Of a stretch of DNA of 64,000 bases, positions 2,979-48,220 are shown piece after piece. Source of the stretch: Spirodela intermedia. Lineage: Eukaryota; Streptophyta; Magnoliopsida; Alismatales; Araceae. The position numbers and the translations under genes were made by a program. The DNA lies in assembly GCA_902729315.2 (NCBI GenBank), contig LR746272.1, forward strand, positions 2,390,035 to 2,454,034, given 5' to 3'. The notes under the pieces were generated by a model, which did not search any database, had not been told where the DNA came from, and was given only the letters and a program-made list of their open reading frames with translations. Numbering within the stretch: the first letter of the stretch is position 1; every line of letters starts with the position of its first letter.

Positions 2979-3713
2979 ACCATCATCACGGCACTCGTAC
3001 GAGGCCTTAGATCCCGCTACTCTCTGAGTAGCTAGAGTGGACACGAGTCCACCATCTTCGTCGAGATCGACGGATTTGGTACCAGACCCCTCCCGACCCC
3101 GAGAGACTCTGAGCCCTATGTCGGCCAGAGAGGCATCAAGGCGGTCCCAGCCGCCTGCGGCTATGAGCCGCCGAGCTGGGAAGGAATCCGTGCCCTACTA
3201 TCCACCGAAGAGTACTAGGGGTCATGGTAGAGGTGGCCAATGGCAACCTTTGCCCCGGTACCCTTCAAGGGATGGAGCGCGCTCCCTTCCAGATGATGTC
3301 ATGTGTAGCATGACCTAGGCTATTGAACATCTGGAGCGAGCTACCTTTGTAGCCGCAGCTCATGGCCCACCGCCACTGGCTCCACTGCTGGTTGCGTATC
3401 CGGTCGCACCACTGACCGCACCCCCTATTACATAGGCATATCAAGAGCATCGCGAGCCCCGCCGGCCTATGAGCCCCAATAGTGATCCATATGATCACCA
3501 GTACCTCGATCACGATCATCATCGAGGGAATCTTCGTCACTGCAACACACCACGTCACGACGATGGCCACGATCAATTGGGCGGTCGTTGGCCACAAGAT
3601 ACTTATGATCACCACGAGCCGGTCTACCCTGCTCATAAGGACGATCTCCCACGTCCACCACCACCGCCACCCGACCCCACTACGAGGACTATTGACCCCA
3701 CAGACGCGACCAA
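2979..3713 (+). pseudogene. Chromovirus gag segment between two Athila insertions
   Basis: This is forward chromovirus gag sequence. Its first 200 bases are the counterpart of 1-185 on -. It encodes low-complexity Pro/Ser/Arg- and His/Asp-rich peptide in more than one frame, with stops between segments, so gag is broken. Before the rearrangement it followed on from 49871-50044 (read on -), joined through an Athila insertion with TSD ACCAT (2979-2983 and 49875-49871). It continues at 14076 beyond the next Athila element. Confidence 0.75.
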
Positions 3714-5343
3714 GGACACGACTCAGTCGTTGTATATTAAATCACGCAAATCTAAAATTTATAAAACTAGAAAATACGAATTTCCGGATATTTAGAAGTA
3801 TTTATAAATAAATATATCAATTATAATTCAATAAAAGTTCCAAAAATAGCGGTAATTTCCCAGGTCGATCACAGGGATGTAATATAATATTTTGTAATTA
3901 TTCAGAGTTTTTCTCAATGAATACGATTTTCTATGAATTTTATACTAGGAAATGAAAAGGAAATATATTTAAAATTCACGAAAAAAAAAGAGGAAATAAG
4001 GGTGCGGACGACAGGATGACGTCAGCGCCCGGCGAACGCGAATCGGGCAGAAACAGAGTTCCGCCCGGCGATTCTTACGTAAGCGATTACAGACGATTTA
4101 ATTAATCAAATTAAGATCTGTAAAAGCCGGAAGAATCGTAATTGAACGAAGTATAGTTTGGTAAATTAAAATCACACAAAGTATCACTAAATAAAGTGTA
4201 AATTAAATTGAAAGCAGGAAACCAAAGTTCCGGCGTCGCGATGGCGATGCGTCGGCGATGCACCGGAATCCTGAGCGTTCGGGAGGATCATCGTGCAGTG
4301 TCCACGGCCTCGAAGGCTCTCCTTGGACAAAGACGACGTGGGCAATCTCTAGATCTTCTCGCGAAGTCTAGAGATCAATGAAGTGGGTCGTCGAGTCGTC
4401 TCCGACGGCTGTCACCCGGCGGAGCGGAAAAACGGCGACTTTGCGGCTCTCCGGCGGCTGTCACCCGACGGAGAGGAGCTGGATGGAGGTGGGGCGCGTG
4501 TCAGGGAGCTTCATCCTCAGGTCCGCGCAGCAAGGGGAGGCTCTTCATCGCATCTGGTACGCTCTTAGGAGGTGGCGACTCGTCTCCCGGCGGATCGTCC
4601 TCTTCCCGATGACGGCTTGTTCGTCGATCAATCGGAGATGATTTACTCGATGGATTGCGATCCTTTTATCGCGAATCGTTCAGCAATTTTAGTAGCAATG
4701 CTCCGCGAATCGCGTTGACGAGATTTTCGCCGATGATCCAGCGATTCCGGTTGCTTAATCCTTCACCGGCGATCTGCAGGAAAGTCGCGATAATCAGTTA
4801 AAAATATATGAATTTTGACTCTGGGAGGATTCGAACCCGCGGCGGTCGCCCGCCCCTGAACAAGGTGTGACGCGGGTTTAGTCCCACATCAGTTGTGCGC
4901 GGATTATTTGGGCGAATATATAGTAAAGTTAGCTTCGTAGGCAAAATCCTCTCGCGTGTACGACCACTCCTTGCCCCACAGCCGGCTGACCACCGGTGAC
5001 GTGGAAGGGGAGTGGCGCACACGTGCCCCTATCGATCCAAGCAAGCTGCTCGAGCCCCTGCTCGCGGCTACTCCCCGACTGCGCTTCCGACCCGCTTGCG
5101 GGCCCGGCTGGCCGGCGGGTCTCCCCATTTTGCAATATTTTTATTTTTATTTCTTGTTCTTCGTTTATCTCAAAACTAAGACTGTAAAAATCGTATAAAA
5201 TCACATAATTACCCAAAAATTCACGTTAATCAACTGAAAACCATTTTTCATGCTTTAACACAAATATAAGTCTATTTATCATGAGTTAAGGCTAAAACTA
5301 TATTATTTACTAATTATTAACTCATGATAATGAAGACTTATCA
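3714..5343 (-). repeat. 3' LTR of Athila copy 1
   Basis: Same length (1630 bp) as the LTR at 12446-14075 and near-identical throughout. On + it ends GAAGACTTATCA. The outermost bases at 3714-3720 read GGACACG instead of the family TGACGTG, so the terminus is eroded or the junction was altered. The LTR contains GGATTCGAACCC (about 4829-4840), a tRNA B-box-like motif. Confidence 0.9.
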
Positions 5344-5352
5344 CACCCCCCA
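5344..5352 (-). other. Polypurine tract of Athila copy 1
   Basis: On the minus strand this reads TGGGGGGTG directly before the LTR start TGATAAG. Plus-strand DNA priming is expected here. The equivalent tract in copy 2 starts at 41128. Confidence 0.75.
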
Positions 5353-6951
5353 ACTTAAATCATTGCTAGTCCCTTAGCAATGGAATTACGAAAATAAAAA
5401 TTTACAAATCTCAAACATCATATTCAATACAGAAAAGAAATACAATTAGAAATGATGCACCTTAAAACACTTTGGATTCTTATATCAAGTATTTAAGAAT
5501 GATGTCAAGCACTTAAATGTTTAAACACTCCTTGGAATAACAATCTAGACTTCACTTCTTCTATTCACATCTTTATCACTTCTTCACTCATAGATGTATT
5601 TACAAGATGTTCCAATTATCAATACTCATCCAAGAATAATATTGATCTTACATTTCCCTTTTTCTATGACTTGATTTTTGAAGTTTGCACTATATTTCTT
5701 CCTTCTTTTTTTTTTTATATATATAGTGGATAAGTAGCTTTTCCTGTAGACAAATTTCAACAATAAGAATGATGTCTCACACCCTCCATGTGTGCTCTTC
5801 ATTTTCAGGGCTTTCACTTTATCCACTTATTTTTTAGCAAGTGTTTTTCTATGCACGATTTTCGACAATGAGAATGATGTCTCACACCCTCCATGTGTAC
5901 TCTTCGTTTCTAGATTTTTCACATTGCTCTCTCTTTTTTTTTTTTTTTTTTGAAATAAGTGATTTCTCCTCACAAGTCCTATAGATCAGGGTGCAAAAAT
6001 CTCCATTAAACTCAAATGATCAATCAAATTTTCACATCAAGTAAATATTATCCATCAAGATCATGAAGTGAAAATCTGTAAAATCAAATCCATGTTATCT
6101 ATCATGTATCCAAGGAGTATTCCAACATTTCATGCTACTAGATCATTCTTTTGACTCAATAATAATCTTCCTAGTATCTTTTGGTATCAATCAATCTAAT
6201 TGATTTAATTTTTCATGCATGCAATATGATGTAAGGAATTTGTAAATTAGATAGTTCTGACAGTTCTGTTTTCTATTTTCAGTTCTATTTTAGGAGCAAT
6301 AAATTTATCAAAAATAAATCAAAACTATCTTCTTTATAGCTGTAATTTCGAATTTCAGTAATATATGTCTAGGGGATTGAAATGTGAGAAAAGGGTCTCT
6401 ATAATTTCAAATTTCGGGTTGTTTTTTCATCTGCTGTTTTTAACAGTCTGTTGTTCCTGACAGAAAACCAGAAAATAGATGTTGCAGTTTTTCCGAATTC
6501 GGCGATTTTTTTTTATTTTTTTAGTTGCTGTTCTAAGTTGAATAAAATGCAAACACATGTTCTTAATCGTCCTACAGCATAAATTAATAATGAATACTTC
6601 CCCCCCGACTTAAAAATGACATTGTCCTCAATGACACAAAAAAAATCGAAACAGAATATGCAGAAAATATAATTTTCAAGTAAAGCATGCATATATGCAA
6701 AGTTAAGCATTAAAAATATTGTCATAAATGATAAAGCTCAGAAAGACATCATCTCAACCTCGTTTTTAATTTTCCACTTCATCTTACACACCTCCTCCTG
6801 CACTTCTTCGAAAAAAAACAAATACAGAAACAAGTACTGCGAAATTCTAAGAAAAACAGAGCTTAAAAAAAATCAAACAGAATGAAATAAAAACCATGGG
6901 TTGCCTCCCATGCAGCACTGAATTTAATGTCTCCAGCTGGACTCCTTGATC
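5353..6951 (-). other. Noncoding 3' region of Athila copy 1, no env
   Basis: This 1.6-kb stretch between integrase and the 3' LTR is AT-rich and has no long open frame on either strand. Some Athila elements carry an envelope-like gene here; this one does not. A second polypurine-type tract (on -, CGGGGGGGAAG) lies at about 6598-6608, and the LTR-proximal one is at 5344. Near 5765-5800 and 5871-5905 a segment containing GATGTCTCACACCCTCCATG is repeated about 106 bp apart. Poly-T runs occur near 5706 and 5936. The same layout is seen in copy 2 at 41128-42720. Confidence 0.75.
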
Positions 6952-9900
6952 TTACTCTTGAATTTCTTTTAATAATAAAATTTCTTTTTCTGCAAGGCGT
7001 TCATGTTCTATGTAATGTTTAAGCCGCTGTCCATTTACCTTAAAGTTATGATCACTTTTAGGATCTTTAATCATTACAGCCCCATGATCATATGTCTCTT
7101 CCACCACATAAGGCCCTTTCCATTTTGATTTTAATTTTCCTGGAATAATTTCAGCCTAGAATCATATAACCACACTTTTTGTCCAACATCAAATTTTTTT
7201 CTGCTAATGTATTTATCATGAAAAGTTTTAGTTTTTTCTTTATATATTCTATGATTTTCATAAGCTTCATTCCTCAACTCCTCTAGTTCATGTAACTGAA
7301 AAATTCTATGCCCACCAGCTGATTTTTCATCCATACATAAATTTTTTATAGCCCATAATGCTTTATGCTCTATTTCCACAGGAAGATGACATGGCTTTCC
7401 AAAAATGAGACGAAATGGGGACATACCTATGGGATTTTTATAAGCTGTTCTATAAGCCCATAATGCATCTTGTAATTTCGTGGGCCAATCTTTCCTATCT
7501 GGTCTAACTATTTTTCTCAAAATTCTCTGAATTTCCTTATTTGCTACTTCAACTTGCCCATTTGTTTGGGGATGATATGGAGTGGCTACTCTATGGTGTA
7601 CTCCATTCTTTTTCAACAGTTCTCTGAAATTTTTATTTGTAAAATGTGTTCCTCCATCACTAATAATCACTCTAGGACATCCAAATCTCGAAAAAATATT
7701 TTCCTACACAAATTTCATCACGATTTTATGATCATTAGTTCTAGTAGGAATAGCTTCCACCCACTTCGACACATAATCAACAGCAAGCAAAATATATTCA
7801 TATTTTTCAGCTGATGGGAAGGGACCCATGAAATCTATTCCCCATACATCAAAAATTTCGACTACTAACATGTTACTCATGGGCATTTCATCTTTTTTAC
7901 TCATGTTACTTATAGATTGGCATGAAATACATGTTCTACTAAATTCTATAGAATCTCTAATGATTGTAGGCCAATAAAAACCACACTGAAAAATTTTTGC
8001 AGCTGTTTTTCGTCTAGAGAAGTGTCCTCCACAGTTAGATGAATGGCACATGTTAATAATGCTATGGTATTCTTCTTCAGGAACACATCTCCTTAAAATT
8101 TGATCATTGCCCAAGTAATATAAATCAGGATCATGCCAAAAATAATTTCTAATCTTAGAAAAGAAATGATTTTTTCTGTTCTTATCCCACTGTTCTGGAG
8201 TTTTTCCAGAAACCAGAAAATTAACAATATGTGCATACCATGGTGATGGTTGATGTTGAGCTGCCATCAATTGTTCATCTGGAAATGCGTCTTGTAAAGG
8301 TGCTGCATTTATTCCTGTGTCACTTAATCTAGAAAGATGGTCAGCAACAGCATTCTCGAAACCTTTTTTATCTTTTATTTCTAAGTCAAATTCCTGCAAC
8401 AATAAAATCCATCTTAATAAACGTGGCTTTGCATCTTTCTTATTTAACAGATATTTTAATGCTGCATGATCAGTATAAATAATAATTTTAGCTCCCAAAA
8501 TATATGATCTAAACCTTTCTAACGAAAATACTACAGCTAACAACTCTTTTTCAGTCGTGGTATAATTTAATTGAGCATCGGATATAGTTTTACTAGCATA
8601 TAAAATTACTATGAGTTTTGACTCTTTTGTTTGTCCTAGAACAGCCCCCACTGCATAATTCGATGCATCACATATTATTTCAAAGGGAAGGGACCAATCA
8701 GGAGCTTGTAAAATGGGTGCCTCAGTAAGTAATCTTTTTATTACGGAAAAAGACTCAAAACATTTCTCATCAAAATTAAAAGGCATATCTTTAGATAATA
8801 GCATGGTGAGAGGTTTAGAAATCTTCGAAAAATCTTGAATAAATTTTCTGTAATAACCTGCATGACCCAAGAAAGATCTAATCTGTTTTACTGAATTTGG
8901 AGGTTTCATTTTAGATATAATATCAATTTTTGCTCTATCCACCTCTAAACCCCTTTTACTCACAATATGACCCAACACAACTCCCTCTTTAACCATAAAA
9001 TGTGATTTCTCCCAACTCAAAACTAATTTTTTCTCTATGCATTTCTCAAGTACATGCTGTAAATGATTTAAGCATTCATCAAATGATTCGCCAAAAACAG
9101 AAAAATCGTCCATAAAAATTTCCATGCATTTTCCAATCATATCAGAAAAAATAGACAGCATACATCTTTGAAATGTGGCTGGAGCATTACACAGACCAAA
9201 AGGCATGCATTTAAAAGCAAAAGTACCAAATGGACAAGTGAAAGTTGTTTTTTCTTGATCTAAAGGGTTTATATAAATTTGATTATAACCAGAGTATCCA
9301 TCTAGAAAACAAAAAAAGTTTTTTCCAACTAATTTTTCTAGAATTTGATTAGTAAATGGTAGGGGAAAATGATCTTTTCTAGTAACTGAATTTAATTTTC
9401 TATAATCAATGCAAACTCTCCAACCGGTAGTTAGTCTTGTTTGTATTTCATCCCCATTTTCGTTTTTTATAACCGTAATCCCTGATTTTTTTGGCACTAC
9501 TTGTGTAGGACTAACCCATTTGCTATCTGAAATAGGATAAATAATATCAGCAGCCAGCCACTTTAAAATTTCCTTTTTTACAATTTCCATCATGTTAGGA
9601 TTTAATCTTCGTTGTGGTTCCCTACTAGTTCTAGCCCCCTCCTCTAAATATATACTATACATGCATACACTCATATCAATGCCCCTTAGATCGTCCATTT
9701 TCCAGCCCATAGCTTTCTTATTTTTTCGAAGTACATCTAATAATTCTTCTTCCTGTTCATCACTCAAATCAGCTGCAATAATAACAGGAAATGAATTATT
9801 TTCCTCCAAAAACATATATTTTAAACTAGAGGGAAGAGGTTTCAACTCTAAATTCAGATGATCTTCCTCTTTCTTTTCTTCTAAATTTATATTCTCTATT

Positions 9901-10844
9901 TCCTCTAATTCTTTCAGCACACAGTCATCAATAACATCTGGATCATCAAAATCATCTAGAAGATCTATGGTATGACAATCATATACTTGGGATTTCTTAA
10001 TATCATTTGATATCTCAAAAATTTTAATTTCTACTGATTGATCTCCACATGAAATTTTCGCAATACCTGTGAGAAAATCAATATTCATCTTTTCTGTATG
10101 CAAAAATGGTCTCCCTAAGATGATTGGTGTATCATAAAACTGTCCATTAAAATCCATTTTCAGTACTATGAAATCAGCTGGAAATTTACACCCTTTAACT
10201 GTCACTATCACATTTTCTAAAATACCTTTAGGATGTTTTATGGATCTATCAGCAAATTGTAAGGTAACAGTAGAAAGTTTAAGATGAGAAATATTAAATT
10301 TATCACAAATACTTGCAGGTAATAAATTAATGCTAGCACCGGTGTCAAGTAATGCATTCTGAAAAATGAATCCATCAATATCACACGAAATCAAAGGGGC
10401 ACCTGTATCTCTCAATTTATATGGTAATTGATTTAATAATAATGCACTAGCATGCATAGATAATTTTTCTACTCTAGGTGCCCTTTTTGGTGTACACATT
10501 TCTTTCAAAACTCTAGCATATTCAGGAATATGTTCAATGGCAGTAAGTAAAGGAAGACTAATTTGCACATCTTGTAAAATTTTCTTTATTTCTTCATTGT
10601 GTTCCTTTTTCTTTCTTTGTCTAGGCTCTAGAGCTTTAGGAAATGGAATGGTTGTCCTCTCTTTCGAAATTTCCTTGGTAGAATCTATAAAATCCTCTTC
10701 TACTCCTATTTGATTTTGTTTTGGGTTGTCCACGTTTTCTTTTTCTTCTAATGTTTGGGGATAAGGATCAGCTAAGATCTTACCACTCCTTAATGCATTC
10801 ACTGTCCTAACATTTTCATTTCGTGGGTTTTTTCCTAGATTCAT
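6952..10844 (-). pseudogene. Athila copy 1 pol: protease, RT, RNase H, integrase
   Basis: Pol of the copy 1 element. From the ATG at 10844 a 1046-residue frame shows, in order: aspartic protease (DTGA, residues 167-170), reverse transcriptase (about 430-610, catalytic FMDD at 577-580), RNase H (CDAS at 725-728, TDH near 792) and the integrase zinc region (H934, H941, C972, C975) with the first catalytic Asp in WGIDF (about 1004). The frame ends at a TAG at 7704-7706 where copy 2 has CAG (Gln). It continues in frame from 7670 and then shifts near 7140, because copy 2 has three C/G bases where copy 1 has two. The intended stop matches copy 2's TAA, at 6952. Pol was originally fused in frame to gag; a 17-bp deletion near 10845 separates them. 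Confidence 0.9.
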
Positions 10845-12228
10845 GCTGAAATCCTATTGTTGGGCGGTTCCCTGGATTTTCTATGGGCTGACTAGGTAGC
10901 TGTCCCTCTTCTCTCTTATTCCCAAGAGCCTCTATAATTTGTTTCTGGTGCAGCATCATTTGGTTCATAGTTTGTTGCATCATTTGGCTCATTTGCTGCA
11001 TCATTTCCATAGCATCAGGTTGGATTTGAGAGGACTGATTTTTCTGAAATCTGTTTTCTTGTTTTGGACGAAATTCAGAGTTTGAATTGGGTCTAAGTGC
11101 TTCTGGATTTTGAATATTATTTGGGTCTCTCCATGAAAAACTATTCCTCCAATTAGGATTATAAGAATTTGAAAAAGGTTCCCTGTTTCTATTAAAACCG
11201 TGAGCCACTTGCACTTGTTCTTGCATAGGGTGAAATGATTGATCTAAATTATAACATTGAAATTCAGAATAATCGTTTTCACCATACATAGGACATGTAC
11301 TATTCGAATTAAGTTGAGAGTTAAAAGGCTTTCTAATATTGTCAATAAGTAAATCAATTTTTTCTAATCTTTGATTAATCTGATTAACCTCATTTCTAAG
11401 TTTAGAATCATCATCATGATGCAATTCATAAATTCCTCTCTTCTTATCCCTGTCATATAATTCAAAAGAGGCTTGATCTCTAGAATTTTCACTTAAATTC
11501 TCATAAAGACTGTAAATCTCATCAGGAGTTTTCTCCATAAAAGCTCCTCCACATATAGAATCAACCATATTTCTATGTTGTTCTAATAATCCATCATAAA
11601 AAATTCTATTGAGCTGCCACTTGGGTATAGCATGATGAGGACACTTTCTAAGTAAATCTTTAAATTTTTCCCATGTCTCATGCAAAGTTTCTCCTGGTCT
11701 TTGATAAAAACTCCATATATGTTTTCTCATATTTTGAGTTTTTCCTAAGGGATAAAATTTTCGAAGAAAGGCCTGTTCTATATCTTTCCACCTAGTTAAT
11801 TCTCTATCTAATGTGGATAGCCAATGACTAGCTTTGTCCCTAAGTGTATGAGGGAATAATTTCATCTTAATAATTTCCGGTGTAACTTGAGAGAGATTAA
11901 CTAAATCACAGACCATATGAAATTTTTCCAAGTGCTGATGAGGTTCCTCTAAAGGCAATCCATGAAAATTAGGGAGCATTTGAAAAATTCCTGGATTTAT
12001 TTCGAATTTAATAGTGGGTGCTAATGGGACTCTAATATTGGATGCTCTTTGAAATGAATCAGGGATATAATGATTTTTCATGGCCATAGGATTGTTCTCA
12101 GTTTGACCTGTACTTCCTTCAGGATCCATCAAAATTAATTTTTCTTTCGGATTTTTCTTTTTGAATGAAATAATGAAAGGATTTTCTAGCCTTGGATGCA
12201 AGGATCTTCTACCATGCATAAAAATCAA
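10816..12228 (-). CDS. Athila copy 1 gag
   Basis: An open frame of 470 residues encoding the capsid/nucleocapsid polyprotein. The middle part carries the retrotransposon gag pattern (FHGLPLEEPHQHLEKF at about residues 88-103, then a LFPHTLRDKASHWL segment and a WEKFKDLLRKCPHH segment), which fits Athila gag. The C-terminal part is rich in Gln, Asn and Met. The zinc-knuckle position is degenerate (CPMYGENDYSEFQC lacks the second Cys and the His). The last codons are out of register with pol because of a 17-bp deletion; compare copy 2 at 46615-46640. The start at 12228 gives the longest frame and is followed by an internal Met at MDPEGS that could also serve. Confidence 0.85.
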   Translation of the reverse strand: MIFMHGRRSLHPRLENPFIISFKKKNPKEKLILMDPEGSTGQTENNPMAMKNHYIPDSFQRASNIRVPLAPTIKFEINPGIFQMLPNFHGLPLEEPHQHLEKFHMVCDLVNLSQVTPEIIKMKLFPHTLRDKASHWLSTLDRELTRWKDIEQAFLRKFYPLGKTQNMRKHIWSFYQRPGETLHETWEKFKDLLRKCPHHAIPKWQLNRIFYDGLLEQHRNMVDSICGGAFMEKTPDEIYSLYENLSENSRDQASFELYDRDKKRGIYELHHDDDSKLRNEVNQINQRLEKIDLLIDNIRKPFNSQLNSNSTCPMYGENDYSEFQCYNLDQSFHPMQEQVQVAHGFNRNREPFSNSYNPNWRNSFSWRDPNNIQNPEALRPNSNSEFRPKQENRFQKNQSSQIQPDAMEMMQQMSQMMQQTMNQMMLHQKQIIEALGNKREEGQLPSQPIENPGNRPTIGFQHESRKKPTK

Positions 12229-12422
12229 TAAATTCGAGGGAAAAAGTTAGTAACTGTTACCCTCCTTCAGGATGCTCCAGTCCTTGCCGTGCTTCTTTTC
12301 GTTCCCTTTTTCTAATAAAAATCGGCAAAAAGAAAATAAAACAAGAGTTAACTTATTATTTTTTTTTTTTTTTTGTGTACTCTAAGAGAAAAATAGAAAA
12401 ATACTAAATATTATGCAATACA

Positions 12423-12440
12423 TCCCCGGCAACGGCGCCA
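12423..12440 (-). other. Athila primer-binding site (tRNA-Asp type), copy 1
   Basis: On - this reads TGGCGCCGTTGCCGGGGA, five bases past the LTR end at 12446. This tRNA-Asp-complementary site is typical of Athila elements and supports the family call. Confidence 0.88.
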
Positions 12441-12445
12441 AAATT

Positions 12446-14075
12446 TGACGTGACTCAGTCGTTGTATATTAAATCACGCAAATCTAAAATTTATAAAACT
12501 AGAAAATACGAATTTCCGGATATTTAGAAGTATTTATAAATAAATATATCAATTATAATTCAATAAAAGTTCCAAAAATAGCGGTAATTTCCCAGGTCGA
12601 TCACAGGGATGTAATATAATATTTTGTAATTATTCAAAGTTTTTTTCAATGAATACGATTTTCTATGAATTTTATACTAGGAAATGAAAAGGAAATATAT
12701 TTAAAATTCACGAAAAAAAAAGAGGAAATAAGGGTGCGGACGACAAGATGACGTCAGCGCCCGGCGAACGCGAATCGGGCAGAAACAGAGTTCCGCCCGA
12801 CGATTCTTACGTAAGCGATTACAGACGATTTAATTAATCAAATTAAGATCTGTAAAAGCCGGAAGAATCGTAATTGAACGAAGTATAGTTTGGTAAATTA
12901 AAATCACACAAAGTATCACTAAATAAAGCGTAAATTAAATTGAAAGCAGGAAACCAGAGTTCTGGCGTCGCGACGGCGATGCGTCGGCGATGCACCGGAA
13001 TCCTGAGCGTTCGGGAGGATCGTCGTGCAGTGTCCACGGCCTCGAAGGCTCTCCTTGGACAAAGACGGCGTGGGCAATCTCTAGATCTTCTCGCGAAGTC
13101 TAGAGATTAATGAAATGGGTCGTCGAATCGTCTCCGGCGGCTGTCACCCGGCGGAGCGGAAAAACGGCGACTTTGCGGCTCTCCGGCGGCTGTCACCCGA
13201 CGGAGAGGAGCTGGATGGAGGTGGGGCGTGTGTCAGGGAGCTTCATCCTCAGGTCCGCGCAGCAAGAGGAGGCTCTTCATCGCATCTGGTACGCTCTCAG
13301 GAGGTGGCGACTCGTCTCCCGGCGGATCGTCCTCTTCCCGACGACGGCTTGTTCGTCGATCAATCGGAGATCATTTACTCGATGGATTGCGATCCTTTTA
13401 TCGCGAATCGTTCAGCAATTTTAGTAGCAATGCTCCGCGAATCGCGTTGACGAGATTTTCGCCGATGATCCAGCGATTCCAGTTGCTTAATCCTTCACCG
13501 GCGATCTGCAGGAAAGTCGCGATAATCAGTTAAAAATATATGAATTTTGACTCTGGGAGGATTCGAACCCGCGGCGGTCGCCCGCCCCTGAACAAGGTGT
13601 GACGCGGGTTTAGTCCCACATCGGTTGTGCGCGGATTATTCGGGCGATTATATAGTAAAGTTAGCTTTCTAGGCAAAGTCCTCTCGCGTGTACGACCACT
13701 CCTTGCCCCACAACCGGCTGACCACCGGTGACGTGGAAGGGGAGTGGCGCACACGTGCCCCTATCGATCCAAGCAAGCCGCTCGAGCCCCTGCTCGCGGC
13801 TACTCCCCGACTGCGCTTCCGACCCACTTGCGGGCCCGGCTGGCCGGCGGATCCCCCCATTTTGCAATATTTTTATTTTTATTTCTTGTTCTTCATTTAT
13901 CTCAAAACTAAGACTGTAAAAATCGTATAAAATCACATAATTACCCAAAAATTCACGTTAATCAACTGAAAACCACTTTTCATGCTTTAACACAAATATA
14001 AGTCTATTTATCATGAGTTAAGGCTAAAACTATATTATTTACTAATTATTAACTCATGATAATGAAGACTTATCA
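12446..14075 (-). repeat. 5' LTR of Athila copy 1
   Basis: A 1630-bp LTR with TGACGTGACTCAG at its left edge on + and GAAGACTTATCA at its right edge, so it starts TGATAAG and ends CACGTCA on -. It belongs to the same subfamily as 3714-5343 and 50961-52584. The chromovirus gag resumes immediately after it at 14076. Confidence 0.92.
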
Positions 14076-15219
14076 CTGACCCTTCCCGACGAGAGGAGCT
14101 CGATCAGCAAGCAGAGTGTCAGCCACGAGATCGCGATGATTCCTACCGCAACTACCAGCGTGCTCCAAACTTTCACTGAGCACCCCAGGATGCCCACCAA
14201 GATCGTTACTACAATCAAGGGCGTTACTCAAGTCCTCCCCACCGTGACTTTAGTGGTGACCATAGGGCCGATCGATTGGATGATCGGGATAGGCGACGTG
14301 AGGATCATAGGGCCCGCATACTGAAAAGTGTACAAGCCGATGTGGCAGTCTTTGACGGCTCCTGTGAGTCCAAGGACTTCATAGATTGGGAGTCTAGTAT
14401 GAACTCCTATTTCCGGTGGTACCACATGGATGATGATTTATGCGTGGAGTATGCGGAGCTAAGACTTGGCGGACAGGCCAAGATCTTTTGAGAAAACAAG
14501 AGCTACACGGCACACTGACGAGGGCAGCCCATCACACCATGGGTTGATATGGCATCACGCTTGAGGAACAAGTATGTTCCTCGACAGTACGAGTCGACGC
14601 TGTTCCTCAATTGGTTAGACCTCTGATAGGGCAAGATGCCTATCCGAGACTATATTCAGGCTTTTGAGGAGTGCCCATGAGGTAATGCTTTGTCAAGGAC
14701 TCACGTGTGGTTTTGGGCATTTTCACCGACGGACTTAGTTCGCGGCTTCGGAACGAGGTGCTGAAAGGCAACCCGTTTGAAGTAGATGAGGCCTATCGCA
14801 TAGTAGAGCATATGGAGCGACCCGCCGAGGACACATAGTTCACCCCACCTCCGATCACCACGAAGATCGCGTCCACACGATCTGCACAGACACCGATGAC
14901 AGCACCGATGCGTACTAGTGTAGGGAACGGACGGACTACACCGGCGACATCAGTAGGGTCTGCACCACCCCCACGTCCGCCACCAGCTGACGCATCCGAT
15001 CGTGCTACGGCCGCGTCCCAAGCCCATATCACTTGTTGCAAGTGTAAGGGTAAGGTGCACCGGATGAGCCAATGCCCATCTTTAAATCTCCTCATAGAGA
15101 TCGAAGAATTGGGTAGAGGTTCACACGAGGCTGACGTCCCTGTAGGCGATGATGTCTACATTGCTGACGAGGGTTTAGCCGAGGAGTGTGATGACACTCC
15201 TGATTTAATTGGCTACATC
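14076..15219 (+). pseudogene. Chromovirus gag (element 1), degenerate
   Basis: Continuation of chromovirus gag after the Athila insertion. The readable capsid part (DWESSMNSYFRW, then YVPRQYESTLFL and MPIRDYIQAFEEC) is interrupted by stops at 14489-14491 (TGA) and 14634-14639 (TGA TAG, where the family would have Arg-Gln). A complete CX2CX4HX4C zinc knuckle (CCKCKGKVHRMSQC) lies near 15034-15075. The frame ends TAG at about 15220, ahead of the protease. Confidence 0.8.
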
Positions 15220-19341: not shown

Positions 19342-19419
19342 CATTTTGTAGCCTTTTTGTGGCTTATGGGCTTGAGGGCCTCAAGTGGCCCCCCCTCCAC
19401 TTAGCCCACTTGTGGGCCC

Positions 19420-27979: not shown

Positions 27980-30470
27980 GGAGCTAAGTAGACGAGCGCC
28001 TGAAGACTCCGCTCTCCAAGGTGGCTGGACGGCTCGATGACACAATCCGGGGATTCCCGCCGGAGTCTTCCCATATGATTATTCTTACTCTTTCTTCTTT
28101 AAAGGGTGCGCGTTTGAACATCATAATCGAATGGGCCTCCGCGAGTTTCTTGGGTTTCAAAGCGGATGGCCTGTATTTGTTCATTACCTTCTTACAAATT
28201 TCTCAACACTTCCCGGAAGCCCGGACGTCGAGGAAGGATACGCACCCAGACACGCGCTCACGCACAAAGAGACGCACACTCATAATTGCATGTGCATGTC
28301 TCTGTTTCTTCATATAGAACGAGACAGAGACGCAGAGAGAGAGAGAGAGAGAGAGACAAAGATGAGATCTGAGAGGGAGATTGTGTGTGCGAGGGTGATG
28401 GCTCTTTTCAACGATCCTCATCTTCATCTTTTATATACATCGATCCACGCGTTAGAACCCTCACTTTTTTCGAATTTGTTTTACAGAACTGATATCTTTA
28501 TCTCTGGCGCACCCAATAGCTCATCCGTATTTCTCTTTCAATAACATTGATTTCCTGATTTAAAACCTTCTCCCAATCTTTATCCTTGACATGCCTGCAA
28601 GAGTCGAATGTCTTAAATATTTAGTGTTAAATGTTGAACTAACCTTAGTCAACCATGGTGGAGTAGGTTTTGATGATTAAAACATATTGAATGCAGACTT
28701 GGTGATGTAGTTATTGTCAATTGTGGGGTTTGCGATATTTCCAATACCTTGATGGTCTCTCATCCAAGGAAACATCTATTTTGTTCTCAAGTTTTATACT
28801 GCACAACTATTCCATAATCTCTTGATAGGAATTAAGGGCAGCAAGAAAATAAAATTTTGAATTTCATCATCATCCAAGGAATTTCATTAGCCCCTTGGAC
28901 TGTGGGTTCCTCCACTCCTTTCATCGCCTCTTTGACTATTATTTATTCCCATCATTATTTTATTCTCTTATTTTTACTATTCCTCATTTACACATTTTTC
29001 TCTCTTATATTTTTAAATTATCCAAATACTTCGTGGACCTTAACTACCCAACCCAAATCACTCATTTTCTTGAATCATCACCCATTAAAAATTCCTCAAT
29101 AAGGCTTCTGGATCTCAAGCCACTTGAACCAACAATAATCTTCAAGATATCACAATTCTTTTTTGCAAAGGTGTATTGATTTTTAAATTATTTGTAAAGT
29201 TGGCCATTATTTTTAAATCTTTGCTCTTAGAATTTGTGAGATTCATAGAATAGCCACCTGTGTGTGAAAGATTGATGGTCCTAACCCTACTTGAGAAGCC
29301 TTGTTTGATTCTTTGAATTAGATAACCTAATAGGTAATTAATGATCTTAATTCTCCTAAAATTATAAAATTATCTAAATATGAAGCCATTAAAATTCTAA
29401 TTTTAATCACCTTTAAAGATTAATGTGTAGCTCTTTTTAAAGGAGATCTATTCTCACTCTTTATCTCGCATCATTTTGGGTTGGTTGTTTGCAGCCATTC
29501 CAATAAGTTGCTCAGAAACAACAAAGATCAGTTTATGTTTTATAATGCATTACTTAGTGGCAATTGATTTTCTTATTTCCTTTACCTCTTAGTAACAATT
29601 GTGTAGACTCCCCTACCCTAAATATTAAAAACACCCACAATTATATATATCCGACCTAATTTTTTGTAGAAAGTAAAAAAAGATAGATAGCTGGTTTCAA
29701 GTGATATAACCATATATGTAACTATTCATGTACTTCATGATGTCACAAAATATTTGTGTAGTCGTGATGGTTGACTTTCCATGTCAACATGAACGAAATC
29801 CTGAATAATTTCAACATTGAATATGTAGAGCCCCAAACATCTTTGAATGAAAAAAATAATGGTGTTATAAAGAACATGACATTGGAGCTAATAGCAAACA
29901 TCTCTAACCATGAATATTGTGCAACTCAGAGCCAGCCTTCACTAATAATGCTTTGGTCCACAAAAAGAGGCTCATAGAGTGGTTGCCTTGAATGCACACA
30001 ACATTAGTGCATTTATGCTGCTTGATCTAGTCCACTGGCCTCTTCACTTTAGGCATCTAAGTCCCAGTGACCTGGGTCTAGCTCATGCTTTTTGCTTCAC
30101 ACCAGTTCTCAATAGTGATTGGCCTCCATGACTATAAGCCAAAGAGTTTAAAGATGAGCTCAATAAGACTTTTTAATTGTTGATACTATAACCTATTTGT
30201 TCTCTCAAATGTGTGGAAATCTTATTGGCAATAGGTGTTCTAGAGCTTCTAAATTGATCTTTTATTGCTTGGTAGCTCATTGGGTCATCATTCTCTCTTT
30301 GAATTTTGAATTTTATCTTATATATGAAATGTTTGCTATATTTCATCTAGTGTTCACTAGTCACTCTACAATATGTCTAATCGGGAACCTGCTCTAGTGT
30401 TATTTTTAACTTAGAAAAAAAGAAGCTTTTAATTAGGTTGTAAAGTTTACAAAGAAAATACAAAATGATC
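27980..30470 (+). other. BIOF downstream region
   Basis: Includes the 3' end of the BIOF transcript, whose exact end is not resolved. A (GA)n tract lies at 28336-28356. Beyond about 28550 the DNA becomes AT-rich. Small open frames (for example 28131-28544 and 29771-29977) recur in the right arm but have no recognisable product. Part of the 28.6-30.4 kb stretch may be the 5' part of the copia relic that follows, but I see no motif that proves it. Confidence 0.45.
28336..28356. repeat. (GA)n microsatellite downstream of BIOF
   Basis: A run of GA units, also present in the right arm as (CT)n at about 61974-61994. Confidence 0.8.
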
Positions 30471-30479
30471 TACATATAC

Positions 30480-33400
30480 ATTTAAGAAGAAAAAATAATC
30501 ACAAAGGTAAATTTTAAATTACTTTATTTTAAAAATTCTTTGATGAATTAGGAACTTTACTTTATTTTAAAAATTCTTTGATGAATTAGGAACTACACAC
30601 AAATTTTCAGTACCTAAAACTCCTTAACTAAATGGAGCCATTGAGAAGAAAAATATGGCCTTAATTGATCTATCTAAAAGCTTGTTGGCAAAATAGTGAT
30701 ATATGTAAACACTTATGGGTTGAGAGTATTAACATGGTATGTTATGTTATAAATAGAGTTTAGATTGGATCAAAGTTGAAGAACATTCGCTATTTCAAAC
30801 CATTCAGATGTAAATGTTTTATTCCCAACAATGGTAAAGAAGAGTTAGAAAAAGCTGATTAGTAAAGTGATGAGAGAACATTTTAAACTCTGGTGGTTAA
30901 AGAATGGATTCATATTAAACTCTTAGAATATATTAAAGTGATTGTGTCAACATAAATTTCATACATAATAAAGAAACTAAAGAAGGACAAGAAGAATTAC
31001 TTTACTTAAAATCGAACACTGATCATGAACATTAATCTAGAACATAGAGATATACTAAGAGTCATCTAACGGACAGTGCCATTGAAGATTTAATTGATAG
31101 AGTTAGAACTAGATCATAAATTAAAGGAGCAAACTTACATGAAATTCACCTCTCAAATTGAATCATAAAATATTAATGTTGGTCTCATAGATTGTGATGG
31201 AATAAGTGCTATATAAGATGAATTTGAATAATTTGAGAGGAATGATGTATAGCATTTAGTTTCAAAACTTGAACATTAAAATATAATCAGATTTCTTGTT
31301 TAGGGATATGTTCAGAAAAAAGGAATAGATTATGAAAAAACTTGTCTCTCTTACTAGACTTGATGCAAGTAGAATCATTTTATTAGTTGCATGTGCCAAT
31401 AATTTTAAAATGAATTAGATGTTAAAAGTGTTTTTCTAAACATACTAATCAAAGAAGAAGTGTAGAAACTTCAATGTTCATTAGAAGTAGATAAAAATAT
31501 ATTTTGATTGTTCAAATATACATTAATAATATTATCTTTGGTTTAAGTGATGAATCATTATGTAATGAATTTTCAACATTGATGAAAAACGAATTCAAAA
31601 TTAGTATGATGACTTAACTGAATTTATTTCTTAGATTGTTAATCAAATAGTTGCAGAATGAAATTTTAATATCTGAAGAAAAATATACTAGAGAACTACT
31701 TAATATTCAAAATGAAAGATCTAAAGTCCAAAAAAACACTAATAGGTACAAACACGAAATTAGAATCTAATGAATATGGAAAAGAAGTAAATCAAAAATT
31801 TACATAAGGATGATCAGATTTTTATTGTATGTAACAGCTAGCCAGCCTAACATTTTATTCAGTATTTACATGTGTGCTAGATATTAATCAAATTTGAAAG
31901 AATGTCACCTTACTACCCTTCAGAAAATCTTTAACTCTCAATTAACATAGGTATTAAGTGAATAGTATCTCAAAAACATAAATTTAAATCTTTTAAGATA
32001 CCGTGATTCAGATTTTTCAAGTTGTAGGATTGATCGCAAGAGCACAAGTGGCTCATGTTTGTTCTTAGGCATAGTTTAATCTTTTGGAATTCTAAGGAAT
32101 AGAACTTCATTATTTTATCCACTAGAGAGTTCGAGTATGTGTCTACAAGAAGCTATTGCACACATATACTTTGGATAAGGTATCAATTGACAGATTATGG
32201 GTTGAAATTAAAATTACCAGTGTATTGTGAAAATATTAGTGCACTAATCTAGCCAAAAATTTGATTATCTACTCTAGAACAAAGTATATCAAGATCATAC
32301 ACCATTTTATCATGGATCATATAAAAAAAGGGATATTGAACCACAATTCATTAAAACATCAAAATAGTTCATTGACATTTTCACAAAACCCTTTCATAAA
32401 AATAGATTTAATTCAATTATCTATGAAGTTGGTGTGTGCAAAATGACTGATATTTTACCTTGAGTTCTTGTTAATAGATGAATGAATGATGAAGTCAATC
32501 ATTTATTTAAAAAATATAGATGAGTCTACTAAAAGAGGGATCAGCCTCATTGTTTCACTATCATTTTCTATTATATTTCATTGTTTACTTTGTGCAGATG
32601 AATTTTTTAAAACATTCAATTTTACAATGTTATTTTAGTTTTATCACAATAGTCCTTTAAAGGAATGAATGACACGTGTTATATTATTACATATCTTATA
32701 AAGTTTTTATATTGTGTTTATAATATTTCATCTATGAAAAGGGTGAGGCTTCACTTGTTCCAAAACTCATCTTTTCACTGTTACTTGTCACTTCAAAAAT
32801 TATCTTCTTACTCTCTCAACCATAAATCTTATGAATATTGTTTATGAGATTTCTACTTGCATCTCGTAAGTTGTCTAATACATAAATGTATTCTTATTGC
32901 ACTTTTTCTACATTACAATCTAGCTATCTTCTCTCACACCAAACTTTGGAACCAAGATGGTTTACACTTGTCATTCCACCCTTCTAACATCCCCTTTTAG
33001 AGAATCTAGATTTCATAATCTTTCTGAGAAAAATAAAAACAAAAATATTATAATTGACTCTTTACATGATAACTTTGGGCTGTCCTCTCCAATGCATACT
33101 CAATCGTCTTTTTCCATTTTAACACTACAAACATTCTATATTTTCAAACAATCACCAATTCTCAACACATCAAATAAAGCACTTTGAGCCCTTCACAAAT
33201 CACTCTCCGAAGTCATTAATCAATCAACTTAGAGAACATCAAATATTTTCTTAAGACTCAACCATCTATGATCTCTCCTACATACACAACAATAGACCCC
33301 ACAACAATCTCCAAACAAATTTATTACCAACCATAGAAACATAACCCTTTATGTCAATTTTTACAACCTTTCCATCAACTACAGAAATAAATCTTCAACT

Positions 33401-34749
33401 AGCCGCAACTATTGAAATTCCTATTCCACTAGCCACTGAAAATTCAACTCCTACTATAAACACTCCCACTCTACTTGTCACAAAAACTACCTCTCTATGG
33501 CTATAGATATTATCTCCCCTCTGAAATAGGAACCCAAGTCCTACGAATCAATGACTGACCTTCTTGACTTGTACCTAACACCTCTTGTAGAACTAAAGCA
33601 CCCACTAAATCACCTTGGCCCAAGAAGACATCCACTATAACTTCATGAAAAACAAGACTTGTAGAGGAAATTCATTTGAAAGCCTCTCATCTCAAATATC
33701 AACCAATTAAACGTTGATGAACCTAACAGCCTTCCTCTTCTCCATCTCATACATATCATTCTCTATTCTTCTCAACTAAGACTCACAAAGCCAAATTCCA
33801 ATATATATTTAAGGACAAAAAAAGTCATTTATTTCAAAATTATTAACTTGAACTTTTTTGTATCTCAGCATATAAATATGAAATAATTCTTCAATGCCCT
33901 TCAACTCACAACTTTTGTTTCTTCTCCAACTAAAAATTATCCAAATCTGGTCTGACTATTATACAACAATGCCACCAAATACCCTACTAACATTACCTAT
34001 GTCAAAGGAATCCTAATTGGTGCTACCCTCAAAGTTATAAATGTAGTCCTTGATTTACCCTCTGGACCTTCGCTCACTATTGACTGAATTATTTTAAATA
34101 TTTTTTTGTCAAAGTTGGTTGGCATGTAGAATGTACTAAGACATTTTATATTCCATTGTCCTACTGAGTCATGTATTTTCTCATCGGCCATGTCATATGG
34201 CACAAAAGTAATACATTTGATATGATATTTGATAAATTCATGCCAATCTTATATTACCTAGTTAATTGCATTAACTTTGACCTCGGTTCTATCTTCTTGG
34301 ATCAAATGAGGATAGTCCTCAAGTATGATCTCACTCTTCTCCTTGGTGTCATCACCACTTACATATTTCAATACTTCAATGTAGACATCTCTGCCAAATA
34401 ATCAATCAATAGTTATCCTCATGATCTCAATGATAAATTTACTATTCACCTAATAGATTATCTTTAAGTTGATGATTAGTGGCTCCATCATCTTTCTTTT
34501 CTACCTCAACATATTTCTCTCATGCTCTTACATTCCTTGACATCCTACCAATCATTGAAAAATTCAACAAGAGTATAGAACAAATAGAGTAGCAACTTAA
34601 GGCAATTGAAGAATGATTTCAAAATCAATTTCGAAGTTCAAATCAGTTTTCTCATGATCTCACATCAGACTAGAATATTTACATAGTTGATTGTTCTCTT
34701 AAACTTCTTTTATGTATCTATTTTTGATATTTACAAAAGGGGGAGAAAA
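30480..34749 (+). pseudogene. SIRE/Maximus-like Ty1/copia relic, left arm
   Basis: Badly decayed but readable in pieces. Integrase: NGAIEKKN (about 30630-30660), then a MACYVINRV-like stretch. Reverse transcriptase: KGYVQKKGIDYEKT (from about 31302), ARIILLVACANN-like, then SDESLCNEFSTLMKNEF (about 31545-31600). RNase H: DRKSTSGSCLFLG (about 32030), GSYKKRDIEPQFIKTSK and DIFTKPF (about 32370-32395). Integrase before RT marks Ty1/copia. After RNase H there is about 2.3 kb of weak frames, possibly the extra 3' gene region of SIRE-type elements. It ends in a polypurine tract AAAAGGGGGAGAAAA (34735-34749). Stops and frameshifts occur throughout. It is mirrored in the right arm at 55605-59840. Confidence 0.78.
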
Positions 34750-36480
34750 TAATGATAAAAGGTGTGAAAACTGGATGAGTGCATGGACTTAGAGGGAGCA
34801 CTTGTTTAGGGGGAGGATTATATATAACCAAATGATTATTATTTATTATCTAATTATATCATATGACTATTTTGAATGTTTGTTTATTTAATATTGGAAT
34901 GTTCACATACACACATATTGATAATGTGTGTATCTACTATAATCGTGTGAACCCTTGTGTCATCATAGTGGTACTTATTTATATGGATGCAAATTAAATG
35001 TGATGAACTGATTGATGAACTTAATTGATTTCTCATCTGTGTTGAATAGATTGTCATGTAAATAAATTTTATTGAATCAATATTTTAGGTGTCAAAAAGC
35101 AAGATGCCGTTGATTTTGATGCTACTAAGCAAAAATTTATTCACAAAATATTTACATCAAATTTATTGAACATTTGTTTAGTAATAAATTTATTTCATAA
35201 ATACATGTTACAAGTCTAATATCTTAGAGAAGCGTTCTAAAATATATTGATGATACTCAAATAATCTTATACCTAACAATGAATTCAAAGAGTTATATCC
35301 TTGAGATATGCTTATGTTAAATATAATGTAACATCATATAAATTGAACAGAAGTTCAGAAAAAAAAAGTGTCTGCATATGTGACTAAGTATTTAGAAAAT
35401 CATAAAAATACAAACTCACTTGCAAGATTTGAAATAATGATCTAAGTGGGGAAGTTGAAAGTCTCAACAAGAAAAACACTTGAGAGATCAAAGTATATGA
35501 AGTCAAGTGTAAGATTCAAACTCAAAACTTAAGCAACAAAAGGACGAAACTCACAATAGGCAAAATAGTTGAAAATTACAGAAAAACTAAGTCATTGGCA
35601 AGATTCAAAATTGAAACCCTAGCAACAACACACAAGAAAGTTGATTAGAGAGATATGAATAATATCAAAATTTCAATGTCTAAGATATCATTCAAATTAA
35701 AAACCTACTCAATTATAGAAATGAAGCACCCTTGTGAAAATGATCCTCAATAGATAATATGAATAATTTTAGTGAAATACATGGACAAAATGATATATCA
35801 AATAAATTTTTTTGGACTCAACCCTAAAAGCAAAAATGATCCTTTCAAGTGCTGCAGCTGTACGAACAATGAGTTTCAAAATCATAAATGAACAAAAATC
35901 AATGCCAGGCATTCTGGATAGTAACAAATCAACAAAATATGTAAGGATAACAAACAAGCTCAATGACCTTATTTGAGCTCGACCTCAGAAGCAAAGATAA
36001 CTATTGATGAATCACAAATTTTTAAACTAAGCTTCACACATAATTTATGAGAGAACAGTAAGCCTCCAAGTAATGATCAGAGGTCAATGCCACGCATTTT
36101 AGATAGTCTCATGTAAGTAAAATAAGTGGAGAAAATAATAAAGTCAACAATCTTATTTGAGCTCAACCTTGAAAGAAAAATATATTTTTTAATATATTAT
36201 CAATCTTTAAATAAAATATCAAGGACAACTAACATGTGAATAGCAAACTTTGAACTAAAGAAAAAAAATACAATGGTGAATTTTGAGATGGAATAATATA
36301 CTTGATGTGGAGTCCTCAAAAGTGAATGTAGGTCAATGGAGTTCACCAAACCACTCTAAAATCTAGTATGAACTATTTTTTATTTGCTTGCTTCTTTATA
36401 TTACTATAAAGATGTAAATGAGATATTCTTTAAAAAATTAAAAGATGATTCATCCCCCTCCTCTTGAATTATTCAGTCAT
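34750..36480 (+). repeat. Probable 3' LTR of the copia relic, left arm
   Basis: The AT-rich sequence after the polypurine tract ends in a TTCATCCCCCTCCTCTTGAA stretch (about 36450-36469), a pattern I associate with the end of SIRE-type LTRs. Inside it, a degenerate unit of about 160-185 bp repeats roughly three times (landmarks GACTCAACCCTAAAAGCAAA near 35814, GAGCTCGACCTCAGAAGCAA near 35975, GAGCTCAACCTTGAAAG near 36159). The exact LTR ends are not resolved. Confidence 0.5.
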
Positions 36481-36538: not shown

Positions 36539-38452
36539 TAATGGCGAGTGGGACCTGTCTCCATCAGCTTAGGAGACACCGGCAGTCCGAGTTCAGCCTG
36601 ATCGACATGCGAAGACGAAGGAGCCTGGCTTTTGCTATACAGCCTATCCCTTCAGGAGAACGACATTCCACCTCCGTGACGACGACAAGCTCGAGCTCAC
36701 CCTTATCTTTCTTTGTATTTTCATGTTGACTTGTTGGGCCTCGCGTTTGTGTGTTAGCGGGCCCAATTCTATGTGTGTGTTGTTGTTTGTGTCTCCCTTT
36801 CTTTAAGATTTTATTAGGTCTCTCTTTTGAGGCCAAATTAAAATCCTAAGGGGGGGGACCTATGTGTCTTTCCTTTTGGGCCTCTTTTGGGGCTTATTTG
36901 GGTCTTCATTTGAGGCCCACTTAAGCACTGTAAGAGGGCCCTCCTCTTTCTCCTTTTAGGGGAGCTTATTGGGTCTCTCTTTTAGAGGCCCAATAAGCCC
37001 CTTTTGTAGCCTTTTTGTGGCTTGAGGGCCTCAAGTGGGCCCCCCTCCCCTTAGCCCACTTGTGGGCCCTATATAGGGGGAGGTAGGACCCCCCCTCAAC
37101 AAGAAGCACCGAATTTTGTGAGAGATTATCGTTTGTGAGTTACCTTCTTCGTGACCTAGGATAGGGAGGGAAGGAGGGAGTGGAAGGCCGTCGATACCCT
37201 TTAAGGACTTTGTTCATCGTGACGCTGCTGCCTGAGAAGTCCCGCCGCCGCCTAAGACCAACTGCCACTGCTGAACATCTTTATTGCCGCCTGTGAGATC
37301 GCTGCCGTCACCGGACGAAACGGTCACGGTTGCCGCTGCAACCGCCGCGGCCTCTACTGGAACCCCATCACACCGTCGTGACGAAAGGGGCTTACTTCGC
37401 CTCCCTACGAGCCGTCGCCAAGCACTCCACCGGAGTCTATTGACTCCTAGTTCAACTGCCCCCTCTTCCTTCGGAACTCCACCATAAACTCGCCAGAGCT
37501 GCCATCCGCCGCTCCGCCTAGTCGCTGGCCGTTCGCCGATGAACGCCTTCCTGCTGCTGATGTCGGGAGAGACCTTGCTGCTGTGCCGATGAGCCAGATC
37601 CAGTCCAAGCTTTGCACAAGCCCTTGCTAGAGTTTCCGACGATCCGCCGCCGTCGCGCTGTTTCCGGTGCCGCCTAGACTAGGAGGGCTCAACCCTCCCT
37701 GGTATCGTCGGCCAAGATCGTCTCCTTCCTCTGCTCCGCTTCCCGGTGCCACCAGAGAAGGCCAATCCTTCCAACAACGGTTGGGCTTCTGCCTAACTGC
37801 CGACGCTCGGCATTCCCGCCAAAATGCCACCACCGTGCGCGCCCCACGCACTGGCTCCTACGGCCCGCACGACCTGGCACTGCCACCAGCGTGCCCTAAG
37901 GCACGCCGCACGGCTTGCCGCGTGCACCTGCTAGGGTGCCCTTCAGCCCACCAGCGGGCCCACGCCCACGCCGACCACGCCACACCTTACGACGACGACT
38001 ACTGTGACTCTCGACCAGGACCGACCATCGATGCTGAGCATTGCTCTTCACCAGACGTCTCTACTTACGTCGAGTCTCCACTCCGTCATGACCCACCGGG
38101 CTATGCAACCCTGAAGGTTAGCTCTGTACCCCCTTCTTACTTAAGTTTAATTATCTTTTGAAAGGTTTTCTCGGCTCATTTCCACCGCCATCTAGAGAAC
38201 GTAGACAGGATAGGACGGGTTATAGGATCGTGACTTCTCACGCTGCGTCAGACTCATCACCGTTCGTGATCTGCAGCCCTAGGCTACTTCACGACGACTG
38301 TTCCGCCATCTGTCCAGATATGGACCAAGAGGGTCTCACACTTACCATCGTCAAGTGTTTCCCTGAGTTGTCTTGGGTTGATAGTGCATATTGGTACGCC
38401 TACCTGTACTTAGGTTAGGTGGTCTGACCTAGAGTCTAGGGTCCATACATTC
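36539..38452 (+). repeat. Chromovirus LTR truncated by a second chromovirus (outer LTR)
   Basis: A forward chromovirus LTR starting TAATGGCGAGTGGGACC (family TGATGG) next to the end of the left arm. It runs to ATACATTC at 38452, about 90 bp short of the normal end. The next LTR starts at once with TGATGGCG. The missing tail, preceded by the same CATTC, is found on - at 50131-50045. So another chromovirus inserted here with TSD CATTC. Confidence 0.85.
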
Positions 38453-39540
38453 TGATGGCGAGCGGGACCCATCTCCATCAGCTCTGGAGACACCAGTAGT
38501 CCGAGTTCAGCCCGATCGACGTGCAATGATGAAGGAGCCTAGCTTTCGCTACACAGCCTAGCCCTTCGGGACGACGACATTCCACCTCCACAACAACGAC
38601 GAGCTGGAGCTCACCCTTATCTTTCTTTGTATTTTCACGTTGACTTGTTGGGCCTCGCGTTTGTGTGTTAGCGAGCCCAATTCTATGTGTGTGTGTTGTT
38701 GTTTGTGTCTCCCTTTCTTTAGGATTTTATTAGGTCTCTCTTTTGAGGCCCAATTAAAACCCTAAGGGGGGGACCTATGTGTCTTTCCTTTTGGGCCTCT
38801 TTTGGGGCTTATTTGGGTCTTCATTTGAGGCCCACTTAAGCTTATTGGGTCTCTCTTTTAGAGGCCCAATAAGCCCCTTTTGTAGCCTTTTGTGGCTTAT
38901 GGGCTTGAGGACCTCAAGTGGGCCCACCTCCCCTTAGCCCACTTGTGGGCCCTATATAATGGGAGGTAGGGACCCCCCTCAAGGAGTGCCAAATTTTGTG
39001 AGAGATTATCGTTTTGTGAGTACCTTCTTCGTGACCTAGGATAGGGATGGAAGGAGGGAGAGGAAGGCCGTCGATACCCCCTCTGAGGGCTTCGTTCGTC
39101 GTGACGCTGCTGCCTGAGAAGTCCTGCTGCTGCCTGAGACCACTGCCGCCGCTAGACATCTCATTGCCACCCCGGAGATCACCACCGTCACCAGACGAAA
39201 CGGACGCAGTTGCCGCTGCGACCGCCGCCGCCTCTATTGGAACCCTGTCACGCCGTTGTGATGAAAGGGGCTTGCTTCGCCTCCTTACGAGCCGTCGCCG
39301 AGCACTCCACCAGAGTCTCTTGACTCCTGGTTCGACTGACACCTCTTCCTCTGGAACTCCACCATAAACTTGCCAGAGCCACCATCCGCCGCTCCGCCCA
39401 ATTGCTGGCCGTTCACCGACGAACGCCTACCTGCCGCTGACATTAAGAGAGACCCCGCTGCTGTGCCGACAAGCTAGATCCAGCCCAAGCTCCTCACAGG
39501 CCCCGCCAGAGTTTCCCGACAATCCGCTGCCATCGCGTCG
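38453..39540 (+). repeat. 5' half of chromovirus LTR (element 2, inner)
   Basis: Starts TGATGGCGAGCGGGACCC and follows the LTR of 18885-20884 to CATCGCGTCG at 39540, where the Athila element begins. The rest of this LTR is on - at 1340-361. A roughly 60-bp stretch containing AAGCACTGTAAGAGGGCCCTC in the other copies is missing near 38838. It contains the promoter motifs and a TATATAA box near 38953. Confidence 0.85.
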
Positions 39541-48215: not shown

Positions 48216-48220
48216 AAATT

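Follow-up and report, generated by a model that had tools for sequence, protein, structure and literature searches.

Exchanged target-site duplications and mosaic long terminal repeats at a probable 36.6-kb inversion between Athila-like retrotransposons in Spirodela intermedia

Inversions mediated by retrotransposons with long terminal repeats (LTRs) have often been proposed in plants. To our knowledge, both reciprocal products, with readable target-site duplications (TSDs) and a mapped crossover, have seldom been shown there. The closest described system is that of Drosophila buzzatii, in which inversion 2z3 was assigned in 2009 to ectopic recombination between two Galileo copies (PMC2775673). 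The locus described here lies in a window of 64,000 nucleotides of Spirodela intermedia, by which we mean the whole stretch analysed (contig LR746272.1, here C9, positions 2390035-2454034), and it shares with 2z3, as that report describes it, opposed copies, exchanged TSDs and reciprocally chimeric copies in both. Galileo is a fly DNA transposon and the non-inverted chromosomes were sequenced in that case (PMC2775673), whereas the Spirodela copies are plant LTR retrotransposons nested in other elements, bounding 36.6 kb and read from one genome alone. Plant solo LTRs and elements without TSDs that arise by unequal recombination, as treated in PMC7251063, resemble the locus in their LTR-LTR homologous recombination and mismatched flanks, but at this locus both reciprocal products survive, and it is crosswise that the flanks match. 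Athila is the largest Ty3/gypsy lineage in the repeat table of PMC7645714, at 7.23% of the S. intermedia clone 8410 assembly; the elements in the window have the Ty3/gypsy domain order, while their lineage name was given by an initial annotation of this sequence, and we therefore call them Athila-like.

We put at about 0.8 the probability that a single homologous crossover between opposed Athila-like copies inverted 36,562 bases of this window. Two homologous copies stand at the ends of the segment in opposite orientation. The solo LTR at 1341-2978 is flanked by CGGCG on the left and ACCAT on the right, and the Athila-like element at 39541-49870 by CGTCG and ATGGT, neither pair matching within itself. 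Crosswise, ACCAT (2979-2983) is exactly the reverse complement of ATGGT (49871-49875), and CGTCG (39536-39540) differs by one change from CGCCG, the reverse complement of CGGCG at 1336-1340. By our own arithmetic, one crosswise 5-mer match of five in five together with one of at least four in five has a chance of about 1.5e-5. These flanks are as the initial annotation described them, including those of its control, the solo LTR at 50961-52584, which has ATCGG at both ends. The one C-to-T change that it noted is also explained: 13 uninterrupted LTR copies of the region, a count that includes assembly duplicates, read CGCCG (7), CGCCA (3), CGTTG (2) or CGCTG (1) at the second site, and because CGCCG is found in 7 of the 13, CGTCG is the mutated side. 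A related copy of the full element, copy A, carries a further C-to-T change in addition to that of CGTCG. The parts that bear on this reading are listed here in window coordinates, J1 and J2 being the crosswise joins at the ACCAT/ATGGT and CGCCG/CGTCG sites.

2979..39540, no strand: probable inverted interval of 36,562 bases (flanks, joins, mosaic)
445..1340, minus strand: right part of the 5' LTR of chromovirus-like element X, ending at TSD copy CGCCG (CGGCG at 1336-1340 as read in the window); LTR matches C9:2390479-2391374 (J2)
1341..2978, minus strand: recombinant solo LTR S1, with ends from two different insertions (flanks, mosaic)
1947..2321, no strand: crossover interval in the solo LTR, LTR columns 663-1037 (LTR mosaic)
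2979..3722, plus strand: chromovirus-like element Y, gag side, with TSD copy ACCAT at 2979-2983 (J1)
38453..39540, plus strand: left part of the 5' LTR of element X, with TSD copy CGTCG at 39536-39540 (flanks, J2)
39541..49870, reverse transcriptase, RNase H and integrase on the minus strand: Athila-like element B, LTRs 39541-41127 and 48221-49870, the left LTR chimeric
40200..40509, no strand: crossover interval in the left LTR of B (LTR mosaic)
49871..50215, minus strand: leader of element Y, with TSD copy ATGGT at 49871-49875 (flanks, J1)

If the segment had been inverted, the interrupted elements should read continuously across the crosswise joins. J1 was built as the reverse complement of 49871-50270 plus 2984-3383, and J2 as 39141-39540 plus the reverse complement of 936-1335, each of 400+400 bases, with the two own-side joins, P1 and P2, as controls. 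In 240 kb, as assembled, J1 was spanned at 2 places and J2 at 12; P1 and P2 were spanned nowhere in this region. A span of J1 lies at C9:2390452-2389821, where the leader/gag side of element X is uninterrupted at the ACCAT site. We extended the comparison to the genome (32 contigs, 136,496,439 bases) with 120-base joins. J1 was read through in 26 of 32 matches, in chromovirus-like copies, three of the 26 within this array. Of the six others, one was a partial match on C10; the rest, four solo-LTR copies and the element's own flank, broke off precisely at the 5-bp duplication. J2 was read through, again in chromovirus-like copies, in all 40 scored matches (the best 40 of 187 candidates). P1 and P2 were crossed with at least 15 bases per side in none of the 40 matches scored for each (of 107 and 138 candidates), the longest overhangs being 10 and 13 bases. 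The continuity that the initial annotation saw in the chromovirus leader/gag at one join and in the LTR at the other thus extends to copies across the genome.

The reciprocal mosaic inside the LTRs provides a test that goes beyond the observations of the initial annotation. Two related copies each of the solo LTR (S) and of the left (L) and right (R) LTRs of the full element were aligned with an outgroup of eight other LTRs, and we took the 34 informative sites that are fixed in each pair. S groups with R at all 14 sites up to LTR column 663, L groups with R at all 20 from column 1037, and S groups with L at none of the 34; 0 of 20000 shuffles equalled this one-switch pattern. Trees built by halves group the solo with the right LTR on the left (support 99) and the left with the right LTR on the right (support 100). 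The switch falls at 1947-2321 in the solo LTR and at 40200-40509 in the left LTR of element B. Single copies give much the same picture: S1 with element B has 19 S-R, 1 L-R and 3 S-L sites in the left part and 1, 21 and 1 in the right, while S3 with copy A has 21, 0 and 2, then 0, 22 and 0, so that 40 of 46 and 43 of 45 sites fit. Between parts assigned to one LTR pair K was 0.061 and 0.056 (S1/B) and 0.066 and 0.040 (S3/A), below the 0.094-0.106 between the two insertions. Judged from these alignments, both copies are chimeric and one reciprocal crossover explains the mosaic, which is what a crossover of a single LTR (TSD CGCCG) with the left LTR of a full element (TSD ATGGT) must leave. It is likely on this evidence that one partner was already a solo LTR, as the initial annotation supposed; the mosaic fits that proposal and leaves it unproven, for a partner still full length when its left LTR took part in the crossover, and shortened to a solo LTR afterwards, would leave an identical mosaic. 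Homologous recombination between opposed copies, the core of that annotation, is in this way supported by the exchanged TSDs, both continuous joins and the reciprocal mosaic.

The window sits in a large inverted-repeat array of a unit of about 15 kb, which we call U and which the initial annotation had not seen. A search with a 1.5-kb piece of U gave 8 full matches in the assembly, all lying in the array, and otherwise short ones (best 40 of 120 candidates), and two U frames that were tested had no Pfam match at E 0.001. From the left of the window onward, the order is U3 (plus), element X (minus), the solo LTR (minus), element Y (plus, with a later insertion, C, inside it), U4 (minus), LTR W, the LTR of element X, element B (plus), the leader and LTR of element Y (minus) and U5 (plus). 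Reversing 2979-39540 makes U3, U4, U5 and both chromovirus-like elements collinear, head to tail, and rejoins both elements, and this collinearity supports inversion rather than deletion or duplication. The remaining features are as follows.

1..444, minus strand: chromovirus-like element X, leader/gag side, reading leftwards (J1 span, uninterrupted at the ACCAT site)
about 3714/3723..14075, coding on the minus strand: later Athila-like insertion C, flanked by CTGAC on the right and trimmed at its left end; the related copy at C9:2470580 lacks it
14076..18886, plus strand: internal part of element Y, with integrase and a weak chromodomain match
18887..20802, plus strand: 3' LTR of element Y (V')
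20846..36461, minus strand: unit U4, in the opposite orientation to U5 and to U3, which lies left of the window
36540..38452, plus strand: chromovirus-like LTR W
50216..53817, minus strand: 5' LTR of element Y, interrupted by the solo LTR 50961-52584 (TSD ATCGG)
53896..64000, plus strand: unit U5, running beyond the window end

We propose that the locus began as a head-to-tail series of local units, each a U of about 15 kb and a chromovirus-like element, into which two Athila-like elements would have inserted in opposite orientations. The LTR of element X would have received one of them (TSD CGCCG) and the leader of Y, the element that follows, the other (TSD ATGGT). One crossover inside their LTRs, between columns 663 and 1037 and presumably within one chromosome, would have flipped the 36,562 bases between them and left two chimeric products, a full-length element and a solo LTR, with their TSDs exchanged. 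Later events may have been a block duplication, the insertions of C and of the solo LTR at 50961-52584, and a further tandem exchange and deletion in copy A.

Both junctions occur elsewhere in diverged form, and neither can be a single assembly error for that reason. In the assembly the solo LTR and its recombinant flanks occur four times, as two pairs that are identical within and 2.2% diverged between, and the junction is found again at C9:2468221, where 254 of 11,032 bases mismatch (2.3%). Copy A, 2-3% diverged and assembled twice with identical LTRs, has the left flank and right-hand leader of element B. Like the flanks, the continuity, the chimerism and the U orientation, these related junctions are read directly from a single genome assembly.

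Several observations sit less comfortably with one simple inversion. Without the agreement of paralogues, 6 of 46 sites (S1 and the left and right LTRs of B) and 2 of 45 (S3 and those of A) misfit the switch, and among the 20 right-half sites, 11 are packed into 20 bases and could reflect a single event, which leaves 9 scattered sites. Copy A is without about 80 leader bases at its right, so its right TSD is gone. It and the neighbouring solo copy are in direct, not inverted, orientation; the centre between the inverted U units has thus flipped at least once, and either orientation may be the older. LTRs W and Y occupy corresponding ends of U and are 10-16% diverged, while the U copies differ by less than 1% overall (up to about 3% in 1-kb windows), a discrepancy that is unexpected under simple tandem duplication.

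The direct arrangement at copy A is the starting point for a different history, in which a one-unit circle, U plus element Y with its Athila-like insertion, entered the Athila-like LTR in X through a single crossover, and recombination between inverted U copies then flipped the centre. Integration of the circle yields the direct arrangement seen at copy A, and A and the solo copy at C9:2356506 stand in the order of a single-crossover insertion. Both A and B are flanked by inverted U copies, so their centres can flip, and U4 is a mosaic at 126 diagnostic sites, its inner 7.4 kb mostly U1-like and the stretch from about 8 to 15.2 kb mostly U2-like, as a U-by-U flip would leave. This mosaic appears to fit a flip in either order, however, and so equally fits an inversion that came first; the circle also needs a circular molecule and a second step, whereas a single inversion accounts for the window directly. 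We regard the circle as unlikely, although it is the strongest of the rivals. The broader proposal, that the array was built by one-unit circle insertion through LTR homology and still flips between isomers through its inverted 15-kb units, is speculative and slightly less probable again; if it were true, the window would be one state of a locus still switching orientation in a clonally growing plant. A three-LTR exchange, with the right LTR of one full element crossing with the left LTR of another to give the solo LTR directly, was suggested by 686 bases of tandem internal sequence after the right LTR of copy A (C9:2330413-2331098), 99.1% identical to its own. We rejected it: the stub shares 99.1% identity with the internal parts of A and B, against 93.6% with C, and so resembles the product of a later tandem exchange, and the three-LTR exchange is also at odds with the LTR mosaic.

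In such a repetitive region, beside a 10-N gap and with about 110 kb probably assembled twice, the junctions could be switches of the assembly between near-identical repeats, with no inversion at all; the published clone 8410 assembly was, according to PMC7645714, filtered for duplicated heterozygous sequence. Against this, the solo junction recurs at 2.3% divergence, the left flank and leader of the element recur in copy A at 2-3%, the TSDs agree to the base and the two products show the LTR switch reciprocally, and we consider such a chimera very improbable. It is more improbable still that two unrelated LTR-LTR deletions between different elements produced a crosswise match by chance. Unequal recombination does leave solo LTRs and TSD-less elements, as described in PMC7251063, but the crosswise joins restore gapless continuous sequence at both sites and the mosaic is reciprocal.

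The 10-N gap is at C9:2359027-2359036. Before it, the last 56.8 kb (C9:2302194-2359026) match the reverse complement of 2467338-2524164, from which they differ by 10 mismatches and 3 gap openings. Beyond it, the first 53.7 kb (C9:2359037-2412759) match that of 2523432-2577163 with 109 mismatches and 18 gap openings. Element C holds 82 of these 109 mismatches and the stretch 2411499-2412751 another 19, which leaves 8 elsewhere; no mismatch and one gap fall in the initial 16 kb past the 10-N gap. The simplest reading of these matches is that about 110 kb was probably assembled twice, and window positions 1-22725 lie inside this twice-present inverted stretch. The true order would then hold five U copies, two solo LTRs of the recombinant kind, one A and one B. 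Such a double assembly, as far as the sequence tells, leaves the junctions standing, as they occur in copies too different to be one sequence. The initial annotation had named an assembly switch in a repeat as a threat to its reading; the recurrence in diverged copies answers this for the junctions and leaves it unanswered for the copy number of the surroundings.

Opposed copies, exchanged TSDs and reciprocal chimerism are the three published signs of an element-mediated inversion (PMC2775673), and their presence together makes this a further case of a known mechanism, here for a retrotransposon. The mechanism is ordinary; the locus is a well-preserved example of it from a plant, in an unusually readable state. 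No paper on this locus was among the matches listed in our literature searches, which covered titles and abstract openings. The locus shows how exchanged TSDs and LTR mosaics can order rearrangements from one genome alone, and it flags a stretch of about 110 kb that is probably held twice in the assembly.

Insertion C adds to this order. Its right flank is CTGAC; its left end is short of 6 to 9 LTR bases and of 25 bases of the target, and GAC stands at the break. It lies beside S1 and is absent beside the diverged copy of S1, where its empty site is at C9:2470580-2470640, and its LTRs differ by K 0.0225, near the 0.0224 between the two solo groups. This absence and the near-equal K values suggest that the inversion came first, the block duplication second and insertion C third.

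Between the LTRs of insertion C, gag, reverse transcriptase, RNase H and integrase all had matches, in Ty3/gypsy order and coded on the minus strand. Element B matched reverse transcriptase, RNase H and integrase, in the same order and on the same strand between its LTRs, and two of its frames that were tested gave no gag match. Five of the six best homologues of the polymerase were Spirodela intermedia proteins (84-91% identity). No homologue named Athila was among the 120 matches listed of 7220, and six short frames beyond the integrase matched no Athila family in Pfam. In element Y the integrase frame (17443-18021) precedes a frame (18562-19152) with a Pfam Chromo match at E 1.1e-4 and 22.5 bits, below the curated cut-off of 25.1.

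Two smaller observations concern the chromovirus-like LTRs. At 38440-38460, those of W and X stand end to end, with about 3 bases between the inferred end of one LTR and the start of the next; the abutment resembles a two-LTR junction, though W and X differ by about 15%. The control solo LTR at 50961-52584 sits in the LTR of Y; it is absent from the matching copy at C9:2331702-2332501, which shows 95.9% identity over 800 bases.

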